NCBI RefSeq assembly: GCF_000004075.3
Contig: NC_026655.2
Coordinates: forward strand, 25,343,489-25,407,488
Direction of reading: 5' to 3'
DNA length: 64,000 nucleotides
DNA from: Cucumis sativus
Taxonomy: Eukaryota; Streptophyta; Magnoliopsida; Cucurbitales; Cucurbitaceae
This document shows, piece after piece, positions 23,513-58,574 of this stretch. Under the pieces are notes generated by a model. It did not search any database. It saw nothing but the letters and a program-made list of their open reading frames with translations, and had not been told where the DNA came from. Each line of letters begins with the position of its first letter. The stretch's first letter is position 1. The position numbers and the translations under genes are program-made.

Positions 23513-24661
23513 TCACTTCACTAGCTCTGATACCCATTCAACATCCGGTGTGCAGGTTGAAGGATTTGACTCAGCCCAGTCCAGCGAATTTTCCTTGCTC
23601 AGCTTCTCCAGCATCTTTGCCCTCAGCTCCCTCCCCGATTCGACTCGCTCCATCACCGGCTCCTCCTCGAATCCATGCTCTGTGAAATCGAGCAGTCCAA
23701 CACCATGACCAGTTGGAGCCCGAGTTGGAGTTGTTGGAAGGCTGCAAAATCCATGGCAGACTCGAGATGGATAACCAGGAGAGCCAATTTGAACATTCCA
23801 GGAAGATGGTAACGATTTGACCTTGCTCAGATGTAAGTTCCGGAGGGATGCGACCATTTCGTTGATGGAAGTGGAGCCAAGTGACCGGCCAAGCGAACGA
23901 GTCATGGGGGATAACGGGGGTGAGTCCACCGGAGTCGCTGTCGGTGAGACAGACACAGGAGAGGACAGAAACGGCAGCGTTTTAGAACAGGATCCATCCA
24001 CAGACTGCCGAAGAGGAGATTCATCATACGAGTCAGGCGAATTCGCGCTTCTCGGACTCTGCTGAGGCAAAACCCTAAGTTGTTCAGGAGTATGAGCGAA
24101 GAAACAGACTCTCCTTCTACAGTTGGTTCCATCTTTACACGGCTGAGTCCTGTAACGAGCAGGATGAAGCCAACACTCAAAAACACCATGCGCAAACTCG
24201 CATGAATCCCCTTTCTTACAGCTACCTTTACGAAAATCGGGACACGCCGTACCAGAGTAATGATACTTCCTCGGATCCCTCCGGCGAGCCTTCTCGCCGG
24301 GATGAGCGTACGGACACTCCGTCCAATCATGAGAACGTCCACGAGTACACTTCCTCACCTTGAACTCAAAAATCCGAAAATGATCACACGAATAAGCATT
24401 CAACGGAACGTCCGCTTCCCGTCCAGACAACTCCGAATCAGACTCAATCTCCGACTCATTCGTATACCGCTGAAGTGCCGCTAAAGCTTCCTGAAGATAA
24501 TAAGGAGAATAATCACCGCCATTGGCATTGCCATCAGAACTAACCGAGATTCCACTCAAAGGATAAGGAAACCGCGTCTCGGTTGCCGTAGGTTCCTCCG
24601 GTATAGTCAATGGAGTGATGTGAACCACCGGACCAGGACGGTGTCGTTCACTGATTAACAT
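23513..24661 (-). CDS. Arginine-rich tandem CCCH zinc-finger protein (plant TZF family)
   Basis: RNA-binding regulator of the family that shuttles between nucleus and cytoplasmic granules and acts in stress, ABA and GA responses. Single exon, 382 aa, as is usual for ankyrin-less plant TZFs. The RR region (about 95-130: [14 protein letters not shown], then [18 protein letters not shown]) precedes two fingers. These are C-X7-C-X5-C-X3-H ([19 protein letters not shown]), a 16-residue spacer, then C-X5-C-X4-C-X3-H ([16 protein letters not shown]). That is exactly the plant TZF pattern. The tail is Ser/Pro-rich ([20 protein letters not shown]). A leucine-rich stretch [14 protein letters not shown] near the C terminus could be an export signal (inferred). 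The frame is intact and GC content is clearly higher than in the flanks. TATA box TTTATAAA lies at 24751-24758. Confidence 0.95.
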
Positions 24662-24750
24662 CTCGTCGGCCGGAGATCACGGTGGTTGATTACGGTTACA
24701 AATTTTTTCAGACAACACTCCTTGCCAAAACCACCGCCATACCCATGGCG

Positions 24751-24758
24751 TTTATAAA
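24751..24758 (-). promoter_or_regulatory. TATA box of the TZF gene
   Basis: TTTATAAA about 90 bp upstream of the start codon, a normal distance for a plant TATA box with a short leader. Confidence 0.55.
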
Positions 24759-27039
24759 CTACTTGGGAACCAAACCATCCACCAAGGTTAGGTTAAACTA
24801 ACCATAGTTCGGTTACACTAACTCAACTTCATTCCAATTTTTACGCCAGTTAAAAAAAAAAAACAAAAAAACAAATAATGGAGACGGTGACGGTGACGGG
24901 GGTGGGGATTCTCTAGCTTCCTCCAGTCGTTACCGTTAGATTAAAAATAACGGTTCTAGAGACTTCCACGAGGAAGATATTCTGAATAGTATAATAACCA
25001 CAATCTCCCACGTGTCACCATCTTAAGCTACTGTTACTCATCAGACGCTCACCGCACTGTCTTAATAAATTCCCATTTCACATAATTAATAACATCATTT
25101 ATTAATCCTCACTTACATAACCATACAAAATTAAATACAGCTGACGGATTGCTTTCCTTTAGACCTTAGCTTAGGTCACCCAAACCCTAATCACATTTCG
25201 TTTAATACTAATAATCATTTTTATCAATTCATCAATCATATTAACCCTAAATCACAAATCTAATTCTAAACTATGACTTTCTCACACCAATTTTTATGTT
25301 CATATTCTTACCAACCTTACATTATCTTTCACGTAAAATAACTCGTCATCCTTATTGAATGGTATAATATTGATTAGGCATTTGTTTCCCCTTCCTTATA
25401 GAAAAGGGACCTATTTGTTTTAATTTTAAGTTTAAGATTCGACTTTATCATCTAATTCTACAATAGTAAAAAGCATAATATAATTTCAACAAAGTGTAAA
25501 TATGTTAAAGAATTTTTTTCCTATGTTATAAAGTTACTTTATACGTTAAATTTTGTACGAATCATATGTTTAAATCTCTACTCACGTGTTAAACAAACAA
25601 AAAGAGAGGGAGATTATAAACATATTAATCACTTCTAAACTTGTTTGATGTGAGAGGTTAAAAATAACTTTTCAATTAAAATCACATTAGAAAATGGACT
25701 AATATATTAAAAAAACATTGCAACTCCGAATGTTAGGGCATGATAAACAAATAAATAAACAAGAGAATTATAAAAAATTTATTTTACCTCTTTTTTCTCG
25801 TAATAAGATGAGTTTGTAATGTAATGTAATTTAAATTTTATATGTCCATTCACCAATTTGAATTTAATGTGTAATACAAAACTAATTTCGTTCCACCGTT
25901 TTATATATCCAACCAATTTATCAATATTTTCACAAATCACAATTTCATTTTCGTTTCATTCCGTTAAACACTCTTCCAACTTTTAGTAATATAATTACAT
26001 TCCAACTTTCTAAACAAATCTCTCAACTTTTACCGATAGATAAGTTTTTCTAAAACATGTAACTAAAATTATTTTTAGGTATAAATGAAACCCTTTAATT
26101 AAAGTTGGAGGTTTTAATCCATTTCAAACCTAACAAAAAGTTAAAAACAACCATCCTTTTTATTTTTACACAACATTTTACCTCATTTCATAAATATTTA
26201 TTCTCTTTCACAATAATTTTTTTCTCCTATTCTCACACTCATTTGTAAATTTTTAGTACAAAAATTAAAAGTTTAAGCAAATTTCAAAAACAACGAAACA
26301 AATTATTTTCAATTATTTTTCTTAATTTTAAAATTTAACAGTACTTTACAAATATTAATAAAAAAATAGATAACAAAACAAACAAAATATATAGTTTATG
26401 AATATTTATAAGTTCAATTTTAAAAACATAAAACTAAAAACACCCTAACTTGTTTGAATAATTTAAACTCCCATTTTGATACTCATTATGATTTTTATTT
26501 TAAATTAAGTTGAAAGATACTATTTTTACCTCCAAATTTCTTTCTATATTATCTATTTTGTATACTTAAAAGAACTAATGTTCTAAAAACGTATATATAT
26601 ATTTTTAATTAAAATCGTCAAAAATAAAAAATTTGACAATATATTTATATTTTATCAATAATTGTCATTGACAGCCGCTAGTGATAAAAGTCTATTATTG
26701 ATTATCAATTATAGAATTCAGAATTTTGGTATAACTCGTAAATATTTTAATTTATTTTATTATTTTTTAAAATATTATTTTTTAATTTGATTAACCATCT
26801 ACCTATTTATTGTATTTAGAAAATATGGACATGAGATAGTGAGAATGATGAGTCATTATAACTTTTGAAATGAAAGTAGCACAACAAAAAAAAATGCACA
26901 TTTATTTTTAATTTTATTTGGAGAATAAGACAAAGAATTACATTATGTTAGTTAGATATTATATATATATAGAATTTGTGAGGTTAAATAAGAATTAAAG
27001 AAAGAAGAAAAAGAGGAAAAAGGAAAAGGGGAATGACTG

Positions 27040-27840
27040 ACAAAAGGTGGGAGAGTGAGCATAAAGAAAGGCAAGAAGAAGAGATGTTGGTAGTGATGGA
27101 ACAAAGGACACTTGGCCACCCCAAGCAACGCCTCACTGCCCTTTATTGCGGCCACGTAACTCATTCCTCCCCCATCCCCTCTCCCTATATTACCATTTTA
27201 CTTGCCTATATATTACAAACTTTACCCTCTTCTTCCAATTTTACAACAGTTTTCTTTTCTCTTTCTAGTCAAGATTAGGTGTAACATAAGTTGTTGCTAG
27301 ACCATACAACCTAGCAATGTCGTTAACCTCGTTCATGTTTTATTTTCACTCATAGATCGTTCAGAAGAACAAAAACTAATTAATGTTGAATAAATATGTT
27401 TTAAAACTGTATTGCTATAGTTAAATATAGGTTACAACTAGAGATTTAACTGCTAGGTATACAAAAGACAAACCATTGTTATATCTCTAAATCAACTTTT
27501 GCACAATCCAATTATATAGACTTGTAATTTAATGTTGACAAGTGCTATACTTTCATGTTATACTCTCCTTCCTTTTCATGCCAAGAATTGACATCAACAA
27601 TCGAATCAACCATATTTTTCTTAATAAAATCGATTCGATAGAGATTTGAATTTGAAAATAGAATAAACATATATCAATTATCCTCGAGCTAATGAAACGT
27701 CATGTATCATATTACTGTAGAATGATATACTAAAAGATTTTGTAGAGTATATTTCTTTAATGACAAAACGAGCCGAACATATATACTCTTCAATTCAAAT
27801 ATCGAGAAGAACCGTTGATTTTTATTTTTTAATATAAAAT
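27040..27840 (+). repeat. Copy A of a tandemly duplicated non-coding locus
   Basis: This 0.8-kb stretch is collinear with 30470-31410. The strongest block is 27106-27157, starting GGACACTTGGCCAC and ending TTTATTGCGGCCACGTA. Further matching blocks in the same order are GATTAGGTGTAACATAAG, ACAACCTAGCAATGTCG, ATAGAGATTT and AACATATATACTCTTC. A TATA-like CCTATATATTA sits at about 27205. The best block has no frame conserved on the plus strand between copies. A short minus-strand frame (AAIKG, GVAKCP) is shared but too short to call. It could be a promoter plus a non-coding transcript. The function is unknown. Confidence 0.65.
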
Positions 27841-30056
27841 CTTAATTAAATTTCATGTTAAGCAAATATTAATTAATTGATGTGTATTTTTTTTCATAGG
27901 CATACATATAATGAAATTAAATTAAATTAGCTGGCAATATCAAATCAAAGGGAATAAAATCAAAAGGGGATTTGATATCCTTTTTTTCTTTTTTTTTTCC
28001 TTTTCAATGTTCAAATCAAACCAATTTGTTTCCTCTTTGCTTTGTTCCATTTTTTCCTTTTTTCTGATGAAAGTACCAAACCAAGTTCACTATTGGTCAA
28101 GATTTAAAAGTGATTTTTTATTTTAATAACCAAATAAATATCATCAAATAACCTAAAAAAGAATATATGTTTTTCTAAAATTTAAATGGAAATTTTATTT
28201 TTTTTTATTAAAAACACTTTTAAACCCTAATTTAATGATAATTCTTGTATAAATAAATTAGATAAACTAATTAATAAACTAGATAGTTTTATAAAGTTAC
28301 AATGTCTCCACGTGGTGACAATGAATTTGTTTGTGTTTAAAAATAAATTGTTTTTCCATTAAAGTTTGAAAATTAAAAGCGTATTTTATTTTATTTTTCT
28401 AAAAAATAATGATAAATAGTTAAAAATGAAGTTAAGTTTTTTTAAAAAAATAAATAAGATAAAAATAAAGTTTAATGAATAAATATCAAATTGTATGAAA
28501 TGAGTTAATAACATAGGTGTGTGTAAGTTAATTGAAATTTATATGATTTGAATATATTAATATAGGAATAGCAAAAATTAATATAATGTAATTATAGAGC
28601 ACATAGAATTAAAGATAAAACTATATATATTTCATTAAAATTTTAAAAAAAATTATAGATAGTGGATTTGGTCAAATATACAATGTCAGAAAGCATAGTG
28701 TATATCATCAATTTTTTTATGACATTATGACAAATAATTATTCCCATGTTTAAAATCTTCACCCTCACCTTGGAAAAAAAAAGTGGAAAACACACTTTTA
28801 TATGGTAGTTATATATGTTGTATTCATTTTAACCTTTTTTTAGTATACTAGAGAAAGATCGATATGAGATTTTATTATAAACGCTAAATTTGTTAAAAAT
28901 ATTTACCAATACAATAAAATTTTAGAATATATCAATCATAGATGTTGATAGATAACATGTATCGTCAGAAATTAGGACAGAAACATGAATGAGCGAGTAT
29001 GACATCTGAATGAGAGATCTTGAACACATGAAAGTTATGCTAGGAAAGACTTAAAAAATTAAAATCTAACATCTATACGAACAAGATGCACAATCCTTTT
29101 CAATGACTCGATCATAAAAAACTTGTGTTAGTTTGTGGGTAAAGACGACACTGCCAGATCATGGATCTGGACTGTTACATAACAGTGAGAAAGTCCAATC
29201 AATATTGCTATGATTTGTAAATATTTTAATTCATTTTTGTTTATTTAAAAATAGCTCTTTTAATAACCAATCCATCATTTTATCGGTTGAGCTACGTTTA
29301 CGTTTACTTTAGATTAAGAAGAAGAAGAAAAAAAAAGGAAGAAAAGAAGTTAAAAGGAAAAGGAAACATTTTGTTAGTTCATATATGGCAAAACATGGGT
29401 ACTTGACCATAGGACAAGGGTAGTGGACCATACTTTAATGTAATTATTTAATTTTTCCTATACTAAGGACAACATGCTCGAAATCTGTGGACCTTACTAT
29501 GATATGACCACCAACGTGGCATGCTTCTTTAATACTTTTATTGTATTCATTAATTCACACTATATATTTATTTATTTATTTATAAAAAAAAAGAACTTTT
29601 CAATATTTTTTTTAAAAAAATAATTTGTTTACTTAGCTTGATGGTCTCTTCTAATATAATATATTTTTAGTAATATCTAACAAAACTTAATTAGATTTAG
29701 AGTTTAATTTATTTAACTGAATAAATCTATTTTCCTTCTTTTTTAAAAAAATTAACTTAAATTTTATACAAATTAATAAGGTCAATGTTATCTTTCTTTT
29801 TCAAGCTTAATCTAAAAGCTCATCTACAATTAAACAAGTCCAAAAATACACACATAAACCTGTCAACATCTATCAAATCAAAACACAACCCCACATCACA
29901 TTTACATCAAAAAGAAAAAGAAACTCACCTATTTGCAACAAATACCCTAAATCAAAAAGTTCAATTCACAGGTTATTTTCTTAATTAATTTTTTAAATTA
30001 GGTCTATGATCATGGTTAAGTAATAATTATGCGACTCTAACACTCACATTACAGTA

Positions 30057-30259
30057 GTGGATTGGAATTTCTTATTTGGCCAAAAGTTTGAATTTTATTT
30101 TCTTTAAAAATTTGAAGTCCTATTTTTACACGAAACTTCATGTTTTTTTTCTGCCTCATCTACGACAAATAATAAATATGTAATGTGCATAATATTAAAA
30201 ATGAAAATTAGGTTTAAAGTAGTATATGATATATGAAATATCATATAATATAACAATAT
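30057..30259 (+). repeat. Flanking repeat X, copy 1
   Basis: About 200 bp beginning GGATTGGAATTTCTTATTTG and ending near ATCATATAATATAA, matching 31427-31602 in order and orientation. It belongs to the same tandem duplication as copies A and B. Confidence 0.65.
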
Positions 30260-30327
30260 AGTATAATTTTGCCAAAAGAGTGATGGTAGAAGAGATCATA
30301 AGTCCAATCTGAAAATAGAATAGACTG

Positions 30328-30347
30328 ACGTGGCATAATCACGTGGG
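30328..30347 (+). promoter_or_regulatory. Paired ACGTG elements upstream of copy B
   Basis: ACGTGGC (30328-30334) and CACGTGGG (30340-30347) form a close pair of ABRE/G-box cores, a known arrangement for bZIP-responsive promoters. They precede copy B by about 140 bp. No attached gene is proven. Confidence 0.4.
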
Positions 30348-30469
30348 ACAGAAGGATTTAAAAGGTGACACAAATACGTGCTAAAGGGACACATGGCATA
30401 AATATAGGACAACGGAAACAAGCGACGGCAAAAATTATAAAAACAAAAAAAAGTTAAATAGAGTGATGG

Positions 30470-31410
30470 TGATGGAAGAAGGACAGTTGTCAAATATTTA
30501 GCGATGGACGAAGGACACTTGGCAACACCAAACAAGGGGTGAGTGCCCTTTATTGCGGCACGTAGGTCATTTCTCCCCATGCCCACCCCTACCCCACCTT
30601 TACTTTTACCCCCTAACACTTGCCCTAAATTTTCTTTCACCCCCTAACACTTGTCTATGTTACAATTTTAGTTAGGAATATATTAAAATTTTACAACAAT
30701 TTTATTTCCTTTTTTTCATCGGTGTAGAGCAATGATTAGGTGCAACGTAAGTTTCGGTGATCATTTACCAAAAGGAAAAGAAATATCACGCCATATGGCT
30801 TCGAACGACTCTGTGTGTACCATGCAACCTAGCAACGTCGTCGGTTTTGTTCATCTTTTGTTCTCATTCATATATTTTTTATGCTTTTTTAGAGATCATT
30901 CAATATGGAGTCTCTGGTGTTTGTTATTATAATCATTAGTTACATTGGTTTATAGGTTATGATAATGTGTTTTTCAAGTGTAAACTACTGTAATAACATG
31001 TGTTTAGAACGTAAAAGATTTTAATACGAGTAAAAATCAGTGAAGTGTTGGGTTAGAAAAAGAGAAAAAAGATAGATGAAAATAATAAATACGGCAACAA
31101 ATGGACTTTAAAACAATGTTGCTAAGATTAGACATATGTTACAAATAGAGATTTAAGTGCCTAGCTACACAATTTAATGTTGAAAACTGCTATATTTTCA
31201 TGGGAAGAATTGACACCAAGAATCAAATCAACCATCTTTCTTAATAAAATTAGTTCGATAGAGATTTAAACTTGAAAAACCAATAGACTACTATATCTTT
31301 AACAATATTGTCTTAATATCAAATCGGGCATCGATATTCAAAAGAACATATATACTCTTCTATTCAAATATCCGAATTGTTCAAAAGAAACCTATGATTT
31401 AATTATATTA
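30470..31410 (+). repeat. Copy B of the duplicated non-coding locus
   Basis: Collinear with 27040-27840. The core block at 30513-30564 starts GGACACTTGGCAACACC and ends TTTATTGCGGCACGTA. It has about 60 bp more than copy A inside the GATTAGGTG..GCAACCTAGCAA interval. A plus-strand 66-codon frame (30732-30932) exists here, but copy A does not preserve it, which argues against coding. X-type repeats lie on both sides. Confidence 0.65.
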
Positions 31411-31426
31411 ACCAAACTCAATTCAT

Positions 31427-31602
31427 GGATTGAAATTTCTTATTTGGCCAAAAGCAATTAATTAAGGCCTACTTTTACACGAAATTTGATGTTTTTGCCT
31501 TATGCTACAACAAATAATAAATAAGTAATGTACGTAATATTAAAAATGAAAAGTAGGTTTAAATTAGTATATGACGTATCAAATATCATATAATATAAGG
31601 AA
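31427..31602 (+). repeat. Flanking repeat X, copy 2
   Basis: Matches 30057-30259 (GGATTGAAATTTCTTATTTG start, shared AATAATAAATAAGTAATGTAC-like middle, ATCATATAATATAA end). It follows copy B directly, whereas X copy 1 follows copy A only after about 2.2 kb. Confidence 0.65.
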
Positions 31603-34344
31603 GTGACACGTAGGTCCGTAACCTCAAATCTTAAGCCCTCGAGATTGCCGTCAATACACTCTTCTTCCTAACCTATTATCATCACACACACACACCCATA
31701 ATCGAAAATTAAAATAATCATTTTTAACTAAATTTTATGATTCTTCATTTTAAAAATTTAATGTCATAATATTTGTTTTTGAATACTGTTCACAAATTGA
31801 TATATTTATAAATGTTTATAGATGTTTATAGCGTTGGTTATTTTGGTTTGGAATAAGCAATATTTGAGGTAACATTGGCACTTGGGGATGGAGTAAAAAA
31901 GACAAATTAGAGAGGGTGTGATGACAATCTCTAATTAGTAGATGTATATGGACTACACATAATAACGCCAAAATAACCTTTCACTTGCTCTACTAATTAG
32001 ATTAGTTTGACTCGGTCATACCTAAAAGTAAGAACATAAAAGCTACCTCATTTAGAAGAGAGGGAAATTCAATAGCCTTTTTAAGGTAAAAGAATGTATG
32101 AATATATATGAACTTGATTGACTTCGCTCCAAATAATTTTTTCAAAACGAAATCTCAACTTATATCTCTAGATGTTACTCACTTTAATTCAAATTAAAAA
32201 GATTAATTGTGTTAATATATGCTTATCGCATGTAAAATTATAAGATAGTTTAACGTGATGTGATATCAACTATTGATGAAATAATTGATCACTCTCTATA
32301 TACATAACCATGATAAATGTATTGCAAATATAAAAGAATCCAATAAAAAGATTTTGTTAGCGTCATAGATTTTCGATCGAACATGTTTTACAGAGTTGAG
32401 CTTGGATTTACGCTGACGTAGGTTTGATGTGGATGTCGTTCGATTTATAATATTTGATGCTTTGATTCTTTTTGTTAAAAGTTAAAAAATTTCATTCGAC
32501 AAATTTTAGATTCGATCATGACATGTACACAGAAAAAAGTGATTCAATTTTTAAAAAAAACTAAACTCTAATATTTTCCATTCGATAGGAAATAGATTTA
32601 TAATTTAATTAATTGTAAATATTATATTACGGTGTTGTCATTATAACAATGACATGTTTCACTTAATTAAAATAATGAATGGGTGTCACCTTTTTCGCTA
32701 AGAAAGAAAAAAATCAATCGGTGTCACGTGGACGTATTAATATTATTTTGTGAGAGACTTAACTTAGTTGTATTTGTGTGATTAAGTGAAGGGGCATTAT
32801 TAATTTAATGTTACAGGTGTATAGTATATGTTTGAAAAATGAAAACATAGGATATTAAAGTAATTTAAATTAAACACACACACACAAAAGTCTATAAAGT
32901 AGAAGTCACGTAGCTTTTCATGTCACATTGAACTTAGAGCATCGAATAATACTTTCTTTTAAAAAAGGGAAAAAATTACTTCCTTGTTCATGAGAGAACA
33001 TTAGTGAGATAAGAAGTTTTCTTATCTTAATCACAACAATGGTACGACTGAACTCGATACATGTACGTTAAAATATCATTTTAGTTAATGTATTAATATA
33101 TATAGAGACAATTATTGAGTGTATTGGAGATAGATTTTGTTATACACTTGTACATATAAGGTGCTGTATAGTTGTTCTTAATTACTTGTTTGATTTTACG
33201 GCTTATACTATCAATTGTCCAATTTTAGTCTATATGCTATCAATAATTCTTAAAATTAGTTTATGGAAGTTTTTCTTTTTATCGAAAATAATTAAATAAT
33301 AATGAAAATTTTTATACAAGTCATTTTACTTGTAATAAATCTTAAATTTTATACTCTTAAATGTTCATTTTAGCTATTCAACTTAGTGTTTGAATGAGCG
33401 ACTTTTTTATTTTTTCTTAGGTGGTTGAGACTATGTTCTCGTGAAAGGATTAAAATGGTCACTTTTTGGAGTAGGGAGTTAGAAAAATAAAAATGAAGAC
33501 AAAAAATAATTGAAAAGTAGAAATGAAAAAAAATTTAGAAGGAAAAAAAGAAAGGGGAAAGTGAGAGAGGCAGGAGAAATGTTAAAGTGAGTGGTGAGAA
33601 CACAAGTAGATGAAGTAAAGGTGGAATCAAAATTGTTTGAGTGTGACATATTGGTATTAAGAAACCAATTCGGGTAATGTTTAAGTTAAAAGCGGGTGAC
33701 TTTAATATCTTTCTCCCCCCCCGGTGTCGTTGTTATTCAGATTTTGCAAATCTTTTAACTTGTTTGATTTGATACCCAAAACCATTCCCTTCTTTTCTTC
33801 TTTTATTATTATATCTCCTTTTCATTTGGGCCTACATATTTTGGGCTTCAACATCCATCCACCTATATATCTATATAATTACACGGGATACTTCCCAATT
33901 TACCAACTAAATTCAAATTAATTAAGTATATAACATAATTTTAAAAAATTTGTAAATAATATTAAAATTTGATATATCATATAAAGTTTATCAGCGATAC
34001 TTTACTATATTTCCAATTTTTTTAAATATTGCTATATCCTTAATTATTATTGCTAAAATAGTCCTCCATTGCAATTTCTCGGATTATAAGACATAGCCAT
34101 TTTAATAACAAAACTCAATTACACATCTTTATTATTAATAATATATTAAAAATAAAATAAGAAAATAAGAAAAAATAAGAAAAGTGGACTATCACATAAA
34201 TTAAGATTTACATTTATTAAATATTCAATGTAAATATGGTATTGATTAATTTTATTGAAGTAATATTCTAATCATAATTACCTCTTAATTATTTTTCTTT
34301 TGTTGATTTTGTTAAAAGAATTATTTCCTTCGTCTGATATTACT

Positions 34345-34436
34345 ATATTATAAATATTGGGATGAAGATTTGAACCCAAGACCTCTTATCCACAGGGAAT
34401 ACAAGTGTCAGTTGAGCTAAGCTCATGTTGAGATCA
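34345..34436 (-). mobile_element. tRNA-derived SINE fragment
   Basis: Read on the minus strand, a pol III A box (TAGCTCAACTGA, about 34408-34419) is followed 30-odd bases later by a B box (GGTTCAAATCT, 34366-34376). The intervening AGAGGTCTTGGGTTCAAATC wording is typical of plant tRNA-derived SINEs. The body beyond the tRNA-like head is short, so it is truncated or a small family. Confidence 0.7.
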
Positions 34437-36086
34437 AATAACTTATAATATCAGTGTTTACTATATGACATTCGAATAATGACTTATTTTTCACCGGCTA
34501 AACAAATCTTCAAAAAGAAATTAGATAATTTTTTTATACTCTTTTCATAACGTTTTTCGAAATATCAACAATCAAACATGAACAAAAAATATGTAAAAAC
34601 AATATAAAATCTGGTTCACTAACGATATATTTAGCTATATTATCCACGAGTAAAGTGAGAGGTACCAATATGATTATATGTTCATATAAGATACTCTTCT
34701 AAACATTAGAGCGTGCTACTTTAAAATAGACAAACTTTTAAATTAAATTTTTTATCAAACATTGAGTGTTATCAACGGTTGGATTAAAAAATAGCCCGAT
34801 AAGATATAAAATTTTATAGTATAACATAGTGTTAGACAATAACATGTGGCCTGAATTAAATGATCTTATAAATTAAATCATGATGTCCAATGTTATGAGT
34901 TTTGTCACTTTAAGATGGAAAGAACTATATACTATTAAGTTCATAAACATGAAAGCAATGATGATGCAATTCTTGATGTTGGAGTCCATTAATGTAAAAA
35001 GTAGCCCTCTTTGCTAAGATTAGACGGTGAAAAAGTAGATAGCAAATTTTACCTAATATTGATACCCATCATCATTGATTTTATCAATCCTATAGCAACC
35101 ATATAAATAATAATGTTAATGTTATTTTAAGTGATTTTTTTTTCAAGAATCAAACTTAAAGTAGCAACCTTATTGATATATGAATTGACACCTCCATCAA
35201 GCTCTAAATATATATATAAACCTATATATGAAAGTCATGTTAAAGAGAAGGGACAAATCATCACTTCAAACTCTCGAAAATGGTGCATATTTGCCTTTTT
35301 CTATACCTTTGAACATGTCACTATTAGAGATATTTTAGACTTTTTCTATACGAATTAATTGAATTTTCTATTCTCCATGTTAAAGAGGATAGTCTACTCA
35401 TTTTCACAATGTTTATCGTTGAATTGAACTAGTTCTCGTTATTGAATGGTAACCTTTTTTTTCAAATCCTTTATTGAAGCTGTAGAAAACTAATAAGTGT
35501 GGTTCATAATCCAGATTACTTTACGACTTTAAGATTTTTGTTGGCTAAGAAGATTATATTGTAAGTACTTTTACTCTATCTGATTTTAGTGATTTTACAT
35601 TTAAACTCAGTTAGACTCTTTTAAATTCACTTACAAATCAATTTCAAACATGACTTTAATCAATTATTATTTTTGGTATTGAAAAAAAAGTAATGAATAC
35701 CTATTTTCTTAGTGTAATTTTGATTTTTTTCAAATCAATTCAAAGTATGATTTCAAACACATTACTTTTGAAGGTAGATGATATTTCTTCGGACCGAATG
35801 ACGAATTTTTGTACTCTTTTTTGATTTAAGTAGTTCTTTAAGCAATGCTCTTTACTTTGTTAATTAATCATCATATTGCAATGTAGTATGTGACTTGTAG
35901 CGATCTCATTATTTTTAGAATTTGGGCCATTTGACATATCTTTGATACAATAATCTCAACTTGTCACCACCCTTTACCTTAGTATGTGATTTGCTTGGCT
36001 CAAGTCTCCGGTCTCCTCCAATATTTGCGTTCTTCAACGAAATCTGAGGAGCCAGATCACGGCATGGTGTAGCAGTGTTGAAGAAG

Positions 36087-41638: not shown

Positions 41639-44600
41639 TCACCTTAACCTGAAGTTTTCATTAGGGAATACAACATTTGGGTTCCTTACAAGTGGATTTA
41701 ATGCAGAAAAGGCTTTCCATTTAGACCCAGATGAGATGCTCCACAAGGAATCTTTGTCTTTATCCCAGGAGGTTGCACCTTCGTTGGTTCGGGAGCCGAT
41801 GACTTTGGAGCAGCCTTTGTCTTCACAAACGGATTTTTCTTGCTCTTTCCCATGCCGTTGGCGACCAACCATCGTGAACCAGATTTCTGTTGGTTGGATG
41901 TTGAGGTACCCCAGAGTTTCTTATTGGGCTCAGTTTTGATACCCGAGAGATGAACTTCTGTGATTCTGAACTGAGGAATGCTTTGTTGTTGTTCAGAAGC
42001 TTTCTCCTCCGGTTCTTCCTTTATCTCTACTCTTGCAATGATCTCGTCATCGTCATCATAATAGTTGTTTCGTATCTCCGAGACTGTGTTGTATATTTTG
42101 GGTTTTGGTGGGATGAACACTCTCTCCACTTGGATAAGAGAAAGCATTGGGGCACCAACTGGTTCATAATTTCTCAGCGGATCACGAAGTTGCACCATGA
42201 GTGCCACTGTGAAGTTGTTACCCAGTAAACCACACTTTCGGCTAGAACTCTTTCCTCGCCTTCGGTCTCCCTTTGTGCCACCACGAATGAAGTCTAAGGA
42301 ATTAGCATGATGAGCAGCGAGTACTTTAGAAGTATGTTCACTGATAATTTCTTCATCATCAAGTTCACCAGAATCCAATCTCAACCATTCATCAAGAGAG
42401 AGAGAAAGACCCATTAATCCATCAACATCATCACCATTGTCTTTTACATCCAACAATTGCAATCCAGCAGTTCCCTCCAGTCCAAGCGACCCACTAATGT
42501 CAATTCCCTTGCCCTGAAGAGCTGAAAATTCTCCTATAGACTGTGCACTGATGTTAGAAGGTGCCTCGTCCTCAGACATTCCTGACTGTATCCTCAGCCC
42601 TTCCATTGAAAGAGCTTCAATCTTGTCCAAGGCTAGAGGAGCAACATCTTCTAAGGATACATATTCCGTCTCAGGCTCACCACGCATACAGTTTTTACCA
42701 TACGTTTCATGCCTAGAACCAGATGATCTGCCCGTGGAAGTTTTTCGTCTATCAAATGGATCTTGCTCAAACACCGGTTCACTCTGAGGTGCACATTGCC
42801 TGTTCCAATGTAGAGAAATAACATGTAATTAAACAAGATAATAAAGAATCTCCCATAGGGAGAGAGGGGTGGGGGAGTTGTTGAAAAATGAGACCACAAA
42901 CCTCTCAGAACCCTCCAAAGTAGTAATAGCTTCCCACGCTAGCCTGTTGCATTGTTTTCCCAGTTATATCTTCCAAAGGCATTAACTTATTTGCTTGCAT
43001 AGAAAGTTTCTCAATTCCAACTGAGGCCAGACGGGGTAGTATTTCCATTACACACGAACCCATTTCGGCAGGTACTACCACGGGGGTAGAAACCTGCATA
43101 ATCAGGTTCCCACCGCTCTTAGCATTCTGGAAAATTGCAGGATTCATAGATCGCAAAAAACCTCCATTCTTTGTCTGGATAAATGAACCCAGTCCTTCTC
43201 CAAGAGGAGGCAATTCAAATGGGTCTTCAGAAGGCATATCAACTGGACTTCCAAACCCATGAGAGCTGCTTGATGGCGACTGTTGAAAGGCTTCCTCATT
43301 CAAGCCCCACTCGTGCATCAAAAACCTCTGTCTCCAAATCTTCCAACATCTTTGCCTTCATTTTACTCCTCATTGCTTCATCATCTATGAAGCACCTGCC
43401 TTCATTATCACTGACAGTCGACGGCATATCAAAAGCTGTATCAGCTATGTCTCCAAACTCAGAACTTGCATTAAAATCATAATCATATGCTGGATAACTT
43501 TCATCTTCATCATCAAAATTGAACAAAGAATAACCACCTGCTACAGCTTCTTCCTCAAATTGTCGTAATAGCTGCTCTCTTGGAGACTCTGGCTCACTTC
43601 CAGAACACAAACCAAATGGACTTTGCTCAAGCCCCAACATACGTAAGAAATCACTTTCCAAATATTCATCATCTAAATCAAGGGGGATCCCTTTACTTTC
43701 CAAAAATTCATCATCTAAATCAAGGGACATGCCCTCTCCAGTTGGTTCATCACTTGACTTAAATTTTAAGTTCAAATGCTCTTCCTCGGGAGACTCCATT
43801 GCTGCCGTCTCCAGTTCACACACACAACTCAAAGCTGACTCCAATTCCTTCAGGATGGATTCTTTGGTATAAATATCATCGTCATTGGAAGAACTATCAC
43901 ATGCAGCAACCCTGCTATCCTCTTCATGAGCCATCGATGATACATTGTCAATTGCAGAATGTCCAACTGCAGAGGAATCAACATCTTTTACATCAATTTT
44001 CTCCACCTGTTCCTCAGAAGACACTTCAACCCCTACTTCAATTTTCTCCACCTGTTCCTCAGAAGACATTTCAATCCCTCGTTCAATGAATGAGAACTCA
44101 GTTCCACAATCAACATCAGCATTTTCTTTCTCAGGGGCAGAAAGGTAAGAATCAGATTTCATTGGATGAGAATCTTCAATGCATCCATTGAGCTCAGGGT
44201 TGCTGTTCTCTGAAGCATCCAATTTACCATCATCAAATTTTTTGTATAATAGATCTACCGACTTGGCAAGTTCTAACTGAGGTACTGGCAGAACTTCATG
44301 AAGATCCTTTATATCATCTACTGTCTGGGATGATTCAAGAGAATTATAGTTCATCCTTCCAGGAATACTCTCAGTATTCCGTATTCTGCTTCTACTACCA
44401 GATTCACCAACCACCATCTCGGATTTCTCGATACCATACTTATTCTGCTTCCCCTTTAAGGAATCACCGATATGATTTCCAGGGCAGGTAAATTATCACC
44501 TACTACTGTGTATCCAAAACTAACATTCATTGTGGCACCTTTAGCCCTACCAGATAATTTAAAGCTAGTAGCCCACTTTCCAGAGCTTTTTTCTTCTTCT

Positions 44601-45207
44601 AACTCCTCCAATGTTAGGGGAAGAAACCTCGTGAGATCAACCCGATGCTTCCCCAAATCAACCTCTGAAGCACCATATAAGGAAGCATAGAGTAAAAAAT
44701 GCTTGGCCTCATACTTTGCAGAATGATGAGGTCCATTTCCACTACCATGTACTGTACAAGTACAGTTCAACACCTCTTCAAATTCTACCTTGCCCCTTAT
44801 GATCTTCTTAGGGTTAGTTACCAATAAACCATCCCGCCTCTTCCAGAATACACTTAGACTAAAATCGTCCAAATCAGAAGGTAACCCCTCAATCAAGTGA
44901 ACTTGGAGAGAGAAACAACAATTAAACCTGCGGTTTCGAACATGGGAGAACGGCTTTAAAGACTTCCAACTCCATATAGATTTCTTTTCCTTGCGTGTTG
45001 GATCTTCATTACTGCTTTTTGGCTTCAACTTGGATCGGGCAAATTGGTTTTACCCGTATATCTTTGTCGATTATTGGCTACAGGATTTGAATTCTTAGAT
45101 AAATGTTTGTTCAGATAAAGTGCTTTGTTTATGGTCTCTATCTCATTCAACAACTTCTCACTGCCAGAGCGACTCCCAATCTTCTTTGAATCAATTCTCG
45201 ACAACAT
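41639..45207 (-). CDS. PLASTID MOVEMENT IMPAIRED 1-RELATED protein (NT-C2 domain), frame broken in five places
   Basis: Family members act in chloroplast and nuclear positioning along actin filaments. Two coding exons, 42902-45207 and 41639-42799, would give 1155 aa. The N terminus MLSRIDSKKIGSRSGSEKLL leads an NT-C2 domain (about 75-235, RRFNCCFSLQVHLIEGLP, PHHSAKYEAKHFLLYASL, LTLEELEEEKSSGKW). An acidic middle with small internal repeats follows. The conserved C-terminal half contains PPLGEGLG, KNGGFLRSMNP, GIEKLSMQANKLMPLEDITG, GLLGNNFTVALMVQLRDPLR and the end NPNVVFPNENFRLR. One-base length changes occur at 45032-45033, 44482-44484, 43320-43324, 42943-42944 and 41764-41766. All are at short homopolymers, and undoing them restores both exon phases. 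There are no other in-frame stops, so consensus error is more likely than decay. Confidence 0.88.
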
Positions 45208-48133: not shown

Positions 48134-51008
48134 ATGGTTGTCTTGCAATTCCACCATTCCATTTTCTTGCCAATTCGTCTTCCCATCACAACAATTGGCG
48201 CTAAAATTTCCCTCCCAACCAACCATTTATTGCCCCATACACCCTCTCTAAACCCCTTCACCGGAATTTTCTATCCAGAGCTACCCGCGACCAAAAATCG
48301 GAAATTTACAACATCCCCTCCACTGAAATCGAGGTGGTGGATGAAGAAGGTGAAGATTATGATGATGGGGACGACAGATTTTGGAGTGAGAGTGGATTTA
48401 GAGGAAGAGAAGGAGAAAAGGACTATGATCGAGACCCTGAATTCGCTGAAATTATAGGAACTAGTCTTGATGATCCAGATAAAGCTCGGTCCAAAGTAAA
48501 ACTTTCTTATCTCTTCCTCGTCAATCGCTTTTTCATGTTTGTTTTTTCTATTATCCCATTGTGGGTTTATCAACGAAGTACTAAGTGGACATTTTATACT
48601 TCAACTTCTTGCTACTGTTTAATGGCAATAATCTCTTTTTGGGTCATTTGTTTGTTTTACGAGTGCAAATATGGTGGCTTAAGTTGAAATGTCTAGATAA
48701 ACATGTATTGTTGCTTATTAGAAGCGTTCTTGTTTTTGGCTTTTGGTGTTTAACTTGTAAGAGGTACATACTGCAGATGGAAGAGAGGCTGAGGAAGAAA
48801 AGAAACAAGATACTTCAGCCAAAGACGGGATCAGCTGTTCCAGTAAAAGTTACATTCAACAAGTAGGATTAGTTTTACCACTTGAATAGATGGATTGTCA
48901 ATCTTTTCATTTTATTGAATTAACCATGCTCTTGCTTTTCCACCTAACATTTATTTAGGATTTCAATCATTTTTTAAACAAAAATGTTTCAATATGTTCC
49001 ATTTTACTATGAGAATAAATCCTTAAACTTCTGGTCCTGAAGTATCTAGCTTGGAAAAAACGACTTGGGATGTGTTGCTTAAATCATTGATCCGGTACTA
49101 GATGTAGCTTTTCTCCAGGAAAAAAGGCCAAATATTTACTTTGATAGTAAAAGGTCAAGATATTGACAGTCAAGTAATTAATGTGACTTGTAATCTATAT
49201 GGATGAATGCATTTGATTTGACTATGTCTGAGGCAGTAGAACAGAGAACCCCAATGTGTGGACTATCTATACAGCCACAATTTCATAAATGCATATTGTT
49301 TCTTCTTGGTTTCCACTAGAGTAGGGAGCTAAATTCTAATTTAGGAAGAATTTCCGTAGCCAACAAGCATATAACTTGTGTGTAGCGATTGCACTACGAA
49401 TAGTTTTGGTATAGTTCTGATAACTGAGAATTTTATTGCTTCTTATATGCTGAAGCCTGAGTATATGAACCGTTAGAATACAAGCATATTTCCTAGTTAT
49501 ATTCCTATGTACTTAGTATCCATTCTCTCCTTAATCTCTAAAACATATTCAGTTGAGAATAAAAAAACTTATTACTTTTTTGCGTGTCTTTTCTTTCTTC
49601 TATATAATTTATGTGAATTATCTGTTGAAGATGTATCTTCTGGCTTAATTATGCATTGAATTCTCCCCATTCCGTTACATATATTCTCTCTTTAGTTTGG
49701 AATTGGACATATGAGTTCTCAATGTTTCTTCCAGATTCGATTTCTCAAACTCGTATATATGGTTTGAATTCTACAACACTCCACTGGCAAAAGATATCAC
49801 CTTAATTTGTGATGTAAGTTTTTGTTTCTGTTATCTTAGCTTCTGCCTAAAAAACTTCAATGAATTAGATCTATTATCTTTGTTCACAGACCATAAGGTC
49901 ATGGCACATCATTGGACGTCTTGGTGGATGCAATTCCATGAATATGCAGGTAAACTTCAATTTCACTCACGTTGTTATAGGATTGCATGATTTTGTTTGG
50001 AAAATTAGCCTTCAGCAAATTTTATGAATCATATTTGCTGTCGATGATCATTTAAGTTAATCTTTACAGCTGTCTCAATCTCCTTTGGATAAACGGCCAA
50101 GTTATGATGCTATTCAGGGAGCTAATGTTAATCCAACCACATTTTATAACATTGGGGATTTTGAGGTTCAAGACAACTTGGCTCGCATATGGTAATATCT
50201 CTCAATCTAATTTTCTGGATGTTGCTGTCATTTTCACAACATTTACGGAGGTGTTCGTGATACCAGGAAAGAGCTTAAGATGTCAGCGTTCACTTTTTTT
50301 TCTCATTTATCTATTTTACTTTATGCACAGGGTTGATATTGGGACCAGCGAACCTTTGCTACTAGATGTTTTGATAAATGCATTAATCCAGATAAGCTCT
50401 GAGTAAGTTCCTACTACACTTCTTACCAATGTTTTCTTGCCCTAATTTAATTTCCATTAAAGTAGTTTTGCTTATCTGCTGTCTGTGAAGTGTGTAATCG
50501 AATCACTAGATTTTTGCCCTTTTAGAGCATGTTGGAGAGTGATCGTGAAATTGTTAAAATTACTTTTGTCATAGTTCTAATCACTTCGAATCACACCAGT
50601 AACCAGTAAAAGTAATTTAATATTTAATTTTACATTTACAAATGCAATTTTCATGTCATCAAAAGTAGTTTTGAATGATTAAAAACATGTTTCAGAGTGT
50701 TTTTTAAAACAACAAAAGTAATTTTAACAATTTTAGAATCGCTCTTTTGGTTTGGTTTTGCATTTCTTCTAATGTCTATATGTTACTCATAATAATTTTA
50801 TGTGCCTCATAATAGTTTATGGACATTGGGTTTAATATTTACTTTTCTAATGTCTATATGTTACTCATAATAGTTTTATGTGCCTCTAAAATTTTCACAA
50901 AACAGCTATGTTGGAATCAAACAATTAGTGTTTGGGGGATCTGAGTTTGAGAATTGGAAAGAGGATTTGACAACTGAAGATGCTGGTTACAGCACTCACA
51001 AGATATAG
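48134..51008 (+). CDS. DUF3531 protein, probably plastid-targeted; frame broken once in exon 1
   Basis: Function unknown. The family is shared by plants and cyanobacteria. Seven exons, 48134-48495, 48777-48862, 49735-49813, 49890-49949, 50070-50191, 50331-50402 and 50906-51008, would give 294 aa. The N-terminal 45 residues (MVVLQFHHSIFLPIRLPITT) are poor in acidic residues and look like a transit peptide (inferred). An acidic linker (DEEGEDYDDGDD) follows, then the conserved domain: EERLRKKRNKILQPKTGSA, FDFSNSYIWFEFYN, TIRSWHIIGRLGGCNSMNMQ, YNIGDFEVQDNLARIWVDIG and QLVFGGSEFENW. An A5 run at 48293-48297 apparently should be A6, joining ATKK to SEIYNIPSTEIEV. All remaining phases then close. 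The exact break point is inferred, as N termini vary. Intron 6 carries a MITE. Confidence 0.8.
50525..50748. mobile_element. Foldback MITE in intron 6 of the DUF3531 gene
   Basis: The left arm (GAGTGATCGTGAAATTGTTA, AAATTACTTTTGTC) and the reverse complement of the right arm (AGAGCGATTCTAAAATTGTT, AAAATTACTTTTGTTG) match over about 35 bp. The outer left end GAGCATGTTGGAGAGTGAT resembles a widespread plant MITE end (GAGCATGTTTGGGAGTGAT). It has no coding capacity and the right terminus looks shortened. Confidence 0.75.
50767..50886 (+). repeat. 42-bp direct repeat with a 78-bp period
   Basis: TTCTAATGTCTATATGTTAC and the following 22 bases occur at 50767-50808 and again at 50845-50886 with one mismatch. 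It abuts the MITE, suggesting a local duplication. Confidence 0.85.
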
Positions 51009-57100: not shown

Positions 57101-58574
57101 GGTACATGAGGCCTTTCATCAGGTTTGAATGGAACATGTTTTCTAGAAGATTCTTTGTGATCAAATGAAGATGGGCCACTAATAGACTCCATCTGTATTT
57201 GACTAGCCTTCCCAAAAGTATTTGGTCCACTCTGCTCAACAAAGTTCATAACTAGTATTACTAAAACCGAAATTCAATATTAAAATAAAATAATTCAGGT
57301 AAGTCTTCATTTCCTGATAAAAACACCTTGAGCATTGAAGGAAATAGTTCTTTTTTATAAAAACTAAAATTACCAACAAATCAGCCGGAGGGTTGATGCT
57401 GTCACCAAAGGATTTTGGGTCCCATTTGATGTTATACTCCTCAGCAATTGCAGTCAAGATTTTAAGTTTGGTCTGCCCATCCGGTGCTTTAGCAGATAGT
57501 TTTTCGACTAACTGGAAAGTTGTAAGAATGGAAGGAAAGTCAATGGAACCAAGTTATCTTCATAGAGAGAACCCACACTCCCTAAGTTTATGAACACAAA
57601 ACAGCTAACACATTTACCATGCGATTCACTCCACATTCTGGGCGCAGCTCCACTGCGGCCGAGACAAATTCTTTTCCATACTTTGATTTAAAGTGTTTAC
57701 GAACATCCAAGAGCTCTGGAATATCTGCACATCTGGGTGATGCAAATATAACACTCGAGACTGCTTCCTTCAAATCTATGGGACAATTTCTGAACATGAA
57801 AACATAAACCGAATTAATAGGAGTACATTCATTATGCTCAGAAATCAGAAGTTAACACATACGTCACGAGGGCAAAATTTTGCTTTAAAAGAAATCACAA
57901 CCATGTGAAGTCGAATACAAATGCACATTCTGAAATCAAAGCATACCCTATAGGCAGCGAAGTTCATGAGAAATCAACAAAAATAACTTCAATAAAAAAG
58001 AAATTAACATACTTTTGGGACTCAATCATTGGCATGCGCGCCACAATTAGCTCACAAAATATTTCAATGAGTTCATAAGCTTCCTTCGATTTCTCTTCTC
58101 TAACAAAGTGTTCAACCTGAAACAAGATGGAAACGTAAATTCTTCGGAAAAGGAATCATCAAATTGACGCACGATAAAGTTCATCTTCCCATATGACATT
58201 AGGTCTAAAAAACACGGTGACTTGATAAAGACACAAATAAATACAATCAATTCCAGAGTCAAAGAACAACACTAAAATACCCGAATTCTAGCAGTCTGGT
58301 CTTGTCCAGCCTCAAGCAACTTAGCCAAATCTCCCTTAAGCTGCTTAATATGAACATCTTTCTTATTCCTCAAAAGCTTAATCCGCGAAACCGCTAACTT
58401 CAGCGATGTCTTACTGCACCGACCCAACCCAATTCAAACAAAAAATGCAAAAAAAAAAAAGTCAATAAATTGATCCCAGCCAAAAGTACCCAACAACAGA
58501 ACAAAAACTACAAGGATTAAGTTGAAGAAATCTCAAACCTACCATTTCGCAGGCTTGAAGCTCTTGCTTAGCAT
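54162..58574 (-). CDS. IST1-like ESCRT-III regulator with long repetitive tail, frame broken in four places
   Basis: IST1-family proteins bind ESCRT-III and VPS4/LIP5 and tune multivesicular body sorting. Seven exons: 58543-58574, 58281-58413, 58013-58116, 57618-57789, 57374-57511, 56984-57231 and 54162-56833. Corrected length is 1166 aa, at the long end of plant ISTL proteins. The IST1 domain fills about 1-180 (MLSKSFKPAKCKTSLKLAVS, RNKKDVHIKQLKGDLAKLLE, RVEHFVREEKSKEAYELIEI, CPIDLKEAVSSVIFASPRC). Past it the tail is Ser-rich and acidic with internal repeats. It ends KLPDYDNFAAHFLALRQNNK, like the MIT-interacting ends of other ISTL proteins. One-base changes at 57091-57093, 56694-56695, 56600-56601 and 56066-56068 break the frame. 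Undoing them restores all junction phases and reveals the expected LAARAAAELSSRG segment. Confidence 0.87.

Follow-up and report, generated by a model that had tools for sequence, protein, structure and literature searches.

Two copies of promoter-like intergenic DNA upstream of a cucumber CCCH zinc-finger gene: a probable old tandem duplication

Local tandem duplication is an ordinary event in plant intergenic DNA, and the copies that it leaves are head-to-tail and collinear and decay by substitutions, by insertions and deletions (indels), and by repeat insertion. Here we describe two such copies, A and B, between 27091 and 31425 of a 64,000-nucleotide stretch of the cucumber (Cucumis sativus) genome (the window; contig C1, 25343489-25407488). 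Each has a core near its left end, at 27101-27168 in A and at 30508-30574 in B, both on the plus strand and collinear with each other. The copies have these features in common with an ordinary local duplication and differ from it in their promoter-like composition and in nothing else essential.

Like the Cucurbitaceae conserved non-coding sequences and putative cis-regulatory elements described in PMC10548412, the blocks common to A and B are intergenic, lie near a gene start and have a similar length (the most-conserved sequences in cucumber have a median of 74 bp there). Those sequences, however, are defined by cross-species conservation above a neutral model, whereas the comparison of A with B showed no excess conservation of the core. 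Cucumber long intergenic non-coding RNAs (lincRNAs; PMC4370693) resemble A and B in their intergenic position, in that no conserved protein was found and in a plausible promoter; they are transcripts, whereas A and B are known here from DNA sequence alone. CR20 and CsM10 are among the lincRNAs cited in that paper, and CR20 was considered as a candidate identity and set aside. With plant core promoters that carry a pyrimidine patch and a TATA box, both copies have in common ACGT sites and, rightward of the core, a stretch rich in pyrimidines, and A also has a TATA-like sequence. They differ from such promoters in that this TATA is not aligned in B and that the start sites of A and B are predicted ones.

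The explanation that our analysis favours, with a probability of roughly 0.6, is that intergenic DNA of promoter-like composition was long ago duplicated in tandem upstream of a CCCH zinc-finger gene. This gene lies on the minus strand (23513-24676), is the nearest gene to the left of the copies, and has its upstream side toward both. A preliminary description of the locus, made from the sequence, had reported two collinear copies with ordered blocks, and this was borne out. The copies run head to tail (27091-27805 in A and 30499-31375 in B) with ordered blocks in common, and their joint alignment scored 655, compared with a mean of 463 (standard deviation 11, maximum 486) in 60 dinucleotide shuffles and with 505.5 for the highest-scoring of the further stretches of the window that were aligned. 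Gap extension was cheap in this alignment, so short blocks at the ends carry little weight. The homology of copy A, the left part of unit 1 (27091-27881), is firm to 27805 and doubtful to about 27881, and that of copy B, the left part of unit 2 (30499-31425), is firm over 30499-31375. The core of A reads GGACACTTGGC ... TTTATTGCGGCCACGTA, and the 52-bp match that had been reported was recovered at 27101-27152 and 30508-30559 with 83% identity. A C-rich short tandem repeat was observed in B at 30585-30646 (31-base units, 74%) and none was seen in A; it makes up part of the length difference after the core.

The earlier statement that nothing else in the region is alike did not hold. Two direct repeats on the plus strand, DR1 (30058-30253) and DR2 (31426-31598), are 79% identical with gaps counted and bracket copy B, while copy A lies outside them. 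DR1 is probably the tail of unit 1 and DR2 that of unit 2, and the simplest account of this arrangement is that the duplicated unit probably comprised A plus the direct repeat, about 1.2 kb, in one tandem event. From the end of the firm block to the direct repeat, unit 2 runs from 31375 to 31426 and unit 1 from 27805 to 30058. The extra 2.2 kb or so found in unit 1 only (27882-30057) would be an insertion in unit 1 or a loss from unit 2. It holds a dispersed repeat of about 170 bp (around 28952-29121), which matched all seven large contigs (C1-C7) with 73-82% identity among the best 40 of 323 candidates scored. An AT-rich fragment was also noticed at 26722-26773 and 29197-29253, and again at 2143-2198 of L068, a locus upstream of the zinc-finger paralogue on C2; it is probably a common dispersed repeat.

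The whole genome (226.6 Mb in 88 contigs) was searched by a method that passes over very common words, and the absences hold at that sensitivity. Searches with A, B and the bracketing repeat gave matches at these places and at the same places on contig C62, and none further. Judged by its sequence, C62 is a redundant, indel-prone assembly copy of the same locus, because its pattern of mismatches and gaps and its broken zinc-finger frame fit indel errors. Between positions 1-55953 of C62 and window 8021-64000 there are 7 mismatches and 81 gap openings, indels make up nearly all of the differences, and the zinc-finger frame on C62 is split and interrupted by stops. The small number of mismatches beside the gap openings over 56 kb, together with this broken frame, led us to reject a true second locus on C62. 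The optional C in GGC(C)ACGTA occurs in C1 but not in C62; C1 is taken as the better copy, and a sequencing error at its CC is possible.

A 22-base core pattern with at most 3 mismatches was found at three places, B on C1 and both A and B on C62; the extra C of A on C1 kept it from being found. For the left half of the core, a pattern of 23 positions including 3 Ns was matched with at most 3 mismatches at 10 places: A and B on C1 and on C62 make up 4 of them, and the other 6 have 3 mismatches. The backward control of this pattern gave 1 place. The hundreds of genomic sites that would have marked the core as a plain repeat, a prospect raised in the preliminary description, did not appear. None of 27 loci taken from other parts of the genome matched the firm blocks of A and B at E 0.01. 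These loci included upstream stretches of the closest zinc-finger paralogue (9.5 kb, on C2; L050 and L068) and of the C4 paralogue (about 7.5 kb); other zinc-finger paralogues were compared to about 1.5 kb upstream. A third copy or an older relative near the zinc-finger paralogues was ruled out by this lack of matches to firm blocks. Exact core patterns gave no match in viral and prokaryote collections, a result uninformative on cucurbits. Two nearby, collinear, head-to-tail copies with no further match at this sensitivity beyond redundant C62 are what a tandem duplication leaves, and neither A and B nor the bracketing repeat had the many genomic copies of a dispersed repeat or transposable element.

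A strongly conserved core amid diverged surroundings had been proposed for this locus, and this claim failed when the core was compared with the other blocks. From the alignment of A with B we took 15 ungapped blocks of 423 columns in all, with shorter and doubtful blocks dropped, which cover 59% of the 715 bases of A and 48% of the 877 bases of B. The core differed at 12 of 67 columns and the other blocks at 60 of 356 (Fisher P = 0.86), and no heterogeneity was found among the 12 blocks of at least 16 columns (P = 0.76). Nor was the core singularly free of length changes, as had been supposed: two later blocks of 54 and 55 columns are equally long without an indel, against 51 columns in the core. 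One block of 29 bp is 93% identical. The longest identical run, 17 bases, lies outside the core, and 88% of shuffles reach 17, with a mean of 21.4 for shuffled matches. There is no specially conserved core among the columns that still align, which are the parts that this test covers, very diverged parts being excluded. The slower divergence than in the surroundings by which a conserved non-coding element is recognized was not seen in the comparison between A and B. Within the core, five C-G transversions fall in 8 bases (27129-27136 and 30536-30543). There CTCAC in A (27132-27136) faces GTGAG in B (30539-30543), a would-be micro-inversion of 5 bases, which in B stands between AAGGG and CCCTT.

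The divergence of A from B (72 differences in 423 columns) gave a Kimura two-parameter distance (K2P) of 0.194 per site. Table 1 of PMC10548412 gives fourfold-site distances of 0.098 for cucumber and melon and 0.266 for cucumber and bottle gourd, and aligned shares of the cucumber genome of 88.6% and 71.4%, respectively. The retained blocks of A and B need no selection, because 0.194 falls between these two distances; the aligned share found here (48-59%) comes from another method than the published shares and is not higher than them. At 4.5e-9 substitutions per site per year, the rate used for long terminal repeat insertion times in PMC6856369, the age of the duplication would be 0.194/(2 x 4.5e-9) = 21.6 million years, which is near the 18.1 million years given there between Cucumis and the wax gourd-watermelon group. 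This age holds only roughly, because the blocks were chosen for likeness.

Plain descent over about 20 million years would account for the likeness of A and B. In our proposed account, about 1.2 kb of intergenic DNA upstream of the minus-strand CCCH zinc-finger gene was duplicated in tandem about 20 million years ago. About 2.2 kb, including the dispersed repeat, would later have come into unit 1, the insertion itself being presumed, and the copies would then have accumulated differences evenly across the parts that still align. Because the divergence is uniform, the ordered blocks are best read as remains of common descent and not of selection on the core. The ancestral piece was probably a promoter or start region and may have belonged to the neighbouring gene or to a unit that was lost or non-coding.

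Both copies are promoter-like in composition. GC content is 0.44-0.47 at the cores and about 0.2-0.36 in the flanks, with purines prevailing on the left side and pyrimidines on the right. At half-widths of 80, 120 and 160, the purine-to-pyrimidine switch of A (27000-27300, centre near 27111-27117) ranked 4, 1 and 1 in the window and that of B (30544) ranked 7, 5 and 6. Among the 13 other top switches, 7, 6 and 6 at these half-widths lay within 1.5 kb upstream of gene starts, where 18.7% were expected (P = 0.005, 0.022 and 0.022), in a test devised after the data had been seen and based on 8 approximate gene starts. The opposite, pyrimidine-to-purine control switch lay there in 3 of 15, 3 of 15 and 2 of 14 cases. 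By this post hoc test, A and B carry the same switch as is found upstream of gene starts in the same window.

The motif ACGTGK was concentrated near the copies. In 24677-36047 (11.4 kb, holding both copies) it had 11 of its 24 matches (P = 0.0014), or 9 of 22 distinct sites with each palindrome counted once (P = 0.009), both comparisons being post hoc. Over the whole window the 24 matches were not clearly above chance (shuffled mean 16.4; 6 of 100 shuffles reached 24). The sequence GACACNTGGC occurred in the window in the two cores and at 30388 only, against a shuffled mean of 0.06. This third site (30388-30397) is situated about 120 bp before core B, near ACGTGG sites at 30328 and 30341. The TATA-like TATATATTA of A (27207) aligned with TCTATGTTA in B, so a TATA box is not common to the copies. 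Of the TATA-like and ACGTG elements from which regulated transcription had been suggested, the former is not kept in B and the latter are gathered near the copies but not clearly above chance over the window. The related suggestion of promoter remnants drew support from the composition and from the 9 of 22 ACGTGK sites.

The same observations would also fit an active duplicated cis-regulatory module, kept in both copies by selection, that would serve the CCCH zinc-finger gene at 24676 as a distal promoter or enhancer through G-box-like or abscisic acid-responsive element (ABRE)-like sites. Its evidence would be the ACGTGK sites near the copies, the confinement of GACACNTGGC to both cores and 30388, and the promoter-like switches at both cores. 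However, the core did not evolve more slowly than the other blocks, the TATA of A was not kept in B, and the closest paralogue has no match to the blocks of A and B in its upstream 9.5 kb. Moreover, ACGTGK in the whole window is just mildly above chance, and the excess of GACACNTGGC is partly a product of the duplication itself. We therefore hold selection on an active module to be possible though rather doubtful.

The switches at both cores could instead mark the promoters of a pair of long non-coding RNA (lncRNA) genes, each with a rightward transcript of about 0.6-0.7 kb. The blocks do extend about 0.6 kb downstream, no long frame is common to A and B, and 3,274 lincRNAs, 89% of them single-exon, are reported for cucumber in PMC4370693. 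Against such genes, the TATA is not common to the copies, their internal length differences amount to tens of bases, and RNA signals failed to appear. Rfam gave no match at gathering score in the whole window; at E up to 5 in 26900-31700 its one match was HOTAIR_1 (31441-31470, E 0.76), whose 21.8 bits fall short of the gathering score of 44 and which is taken as chance. Folding of the plus strand was no better than that of shuffles in A (z = -0.70; 6 of 20 shuffles folded at least as well) or in B (z = +2.48; 20 of 20), and z was -0.25 to -0.66 for both cores on both strands. A structured RNA, a microRNA precursor or an Rfam family was ruled out on these grounds, and ARAGORN with the bacterial code found no tRNA. 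The lncRNA or small-RNA gene pair put forward in the preliminary description obtained no positive evidence, and we consider an lncRNA pair unlikely. A slightly less probable combination of these ideas would turn the cores into divergent promoters of two non-coding transcription units, arranged in tandem within the upstream domain of a stress-type CCCH zinc-finger gene. Such a pair would have stayed together in the cucurbit tribe over about 20 million years and would control that gene by abscisic acid (ABA)-type signals.

Promoter-like composition would likewise be expected if A and B were the promoter and 5' remnants of a tandemly duplicated, decayed protein gene. In that case an old splice donor could be seen in the AG/GT step that the conserved block GATTAGGTGyAAC contains. 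Stop-to-stop frames of at least 15 residues numbered 38 in A and 51 in B, and 13 frame pairs matched in translation (E up to 0.001); the longest match spans 42 residues (43%) and the others span 10-30, with both strands represented. Such matches on both strands are expected from DNA that is about 80% alike. Ten of the 34 frames of at least 30 residues, chosen by eye, were run against Pfam at E 10 and none matched, so the decayed gene was rejected as a candidate. The earlier judgement that protein coding is unlikely agrees with the lack of a coding signal in these ten frames and of a long common frame, with the qualification that short translated pieces do match; a protein-gene origin seems very improbable to us. 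Least credible of all, and hardly worth entertaining, are copies of a mobile element with DR1 and DR2 as its terminal repeats: copy B does sit between two direct repeats, but copy A lies outside them, and a transposable element was ruled out by the lack, at the sensitivity of the searches, of any genomic place beyond the two copies and C62.

Several observations weigh against the tandem duplication of one promoter-like unit. DR1 and DR2 differ at 14 of 156 positions (K2P 0.096), significantly less than A and B (P = 0.017), and may reflect a second, younger duplication or homogenisation. Homology is marginal at the junction. About 50 bases before DR2 match the stretch right after copy A with a local score of 33, which 3.75% of 2000 shuffles reached, and the doubtful tail of A (27829-27881) also weakly matches L030, a locus elsewhere (57 columns, 77%, E 0.006). 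This link is suggestive and not more, owing to this marginal support and to the second match of the A side. Constraint spread evenly over all blocks would look the same as uniform divergence, and without an outgroup neutral and evenly constrained copies are indistinguishable. The promoter-like composition was tied to gene starts by a post hoc test, and those starts are approximate. Finally, the observed/expected CpG ratio could hint at function, being 0.81-0.83 in the copies against 0.44 in the 1 kb to their left and 0.51 between them. Three CpGs are kept in both copies (2 of them in the core), and 9 more occur in one copy only. This level is not special to the copies, because it is equalled or exceeded on the right side of B and in the upstream region of the zinc-finger gene (0.96 in each). 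Present-day regulatory action of the copies is possible on the sequence evidence; if they still act, they would most likely do so as redundant DNA-level regulatory sequence through ACGT-type sites, not as structured RNA.

The surrounding genes were assigned by running 10 window frames against Pfam, 3 of which had no match. The zinc-finger gene matched PF25512 (E 6.9e-21; AtC3H23-like domain). Other neighbours were a MYB protein and an M20 peptidase, the latter presumably of the IAA-amino-acid hydrolase kind, and, on the minus strand, ribosomal L31 (39044-39358) and an NT-C2 protein (44456-45049). Matches below the cutoff were TRAP-gamma at 48205 on the plus strand and Ist1 at 57236-57553 on the minus strand. 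No Pfam match was obtained for the plus-strand frame at 36048, which was counted as a gene by eye. At 33867-34345, two adjacent repeat stretches with many genomic copies were observed (query 31426-34500; best 40 of 1719 candidates scored).

For cucurbit intergenic DNA, the locus carries a caution, as ordered blocks between tandem copies are to be expected from descent alone at this age. A functional reading of a conserved core calls for a prior test of that core against the remaining blocks. If other cucurbits keep both cores, the locus would offer a dated, two-copy test case for the persistence of duplicated promoters without a protein gene.

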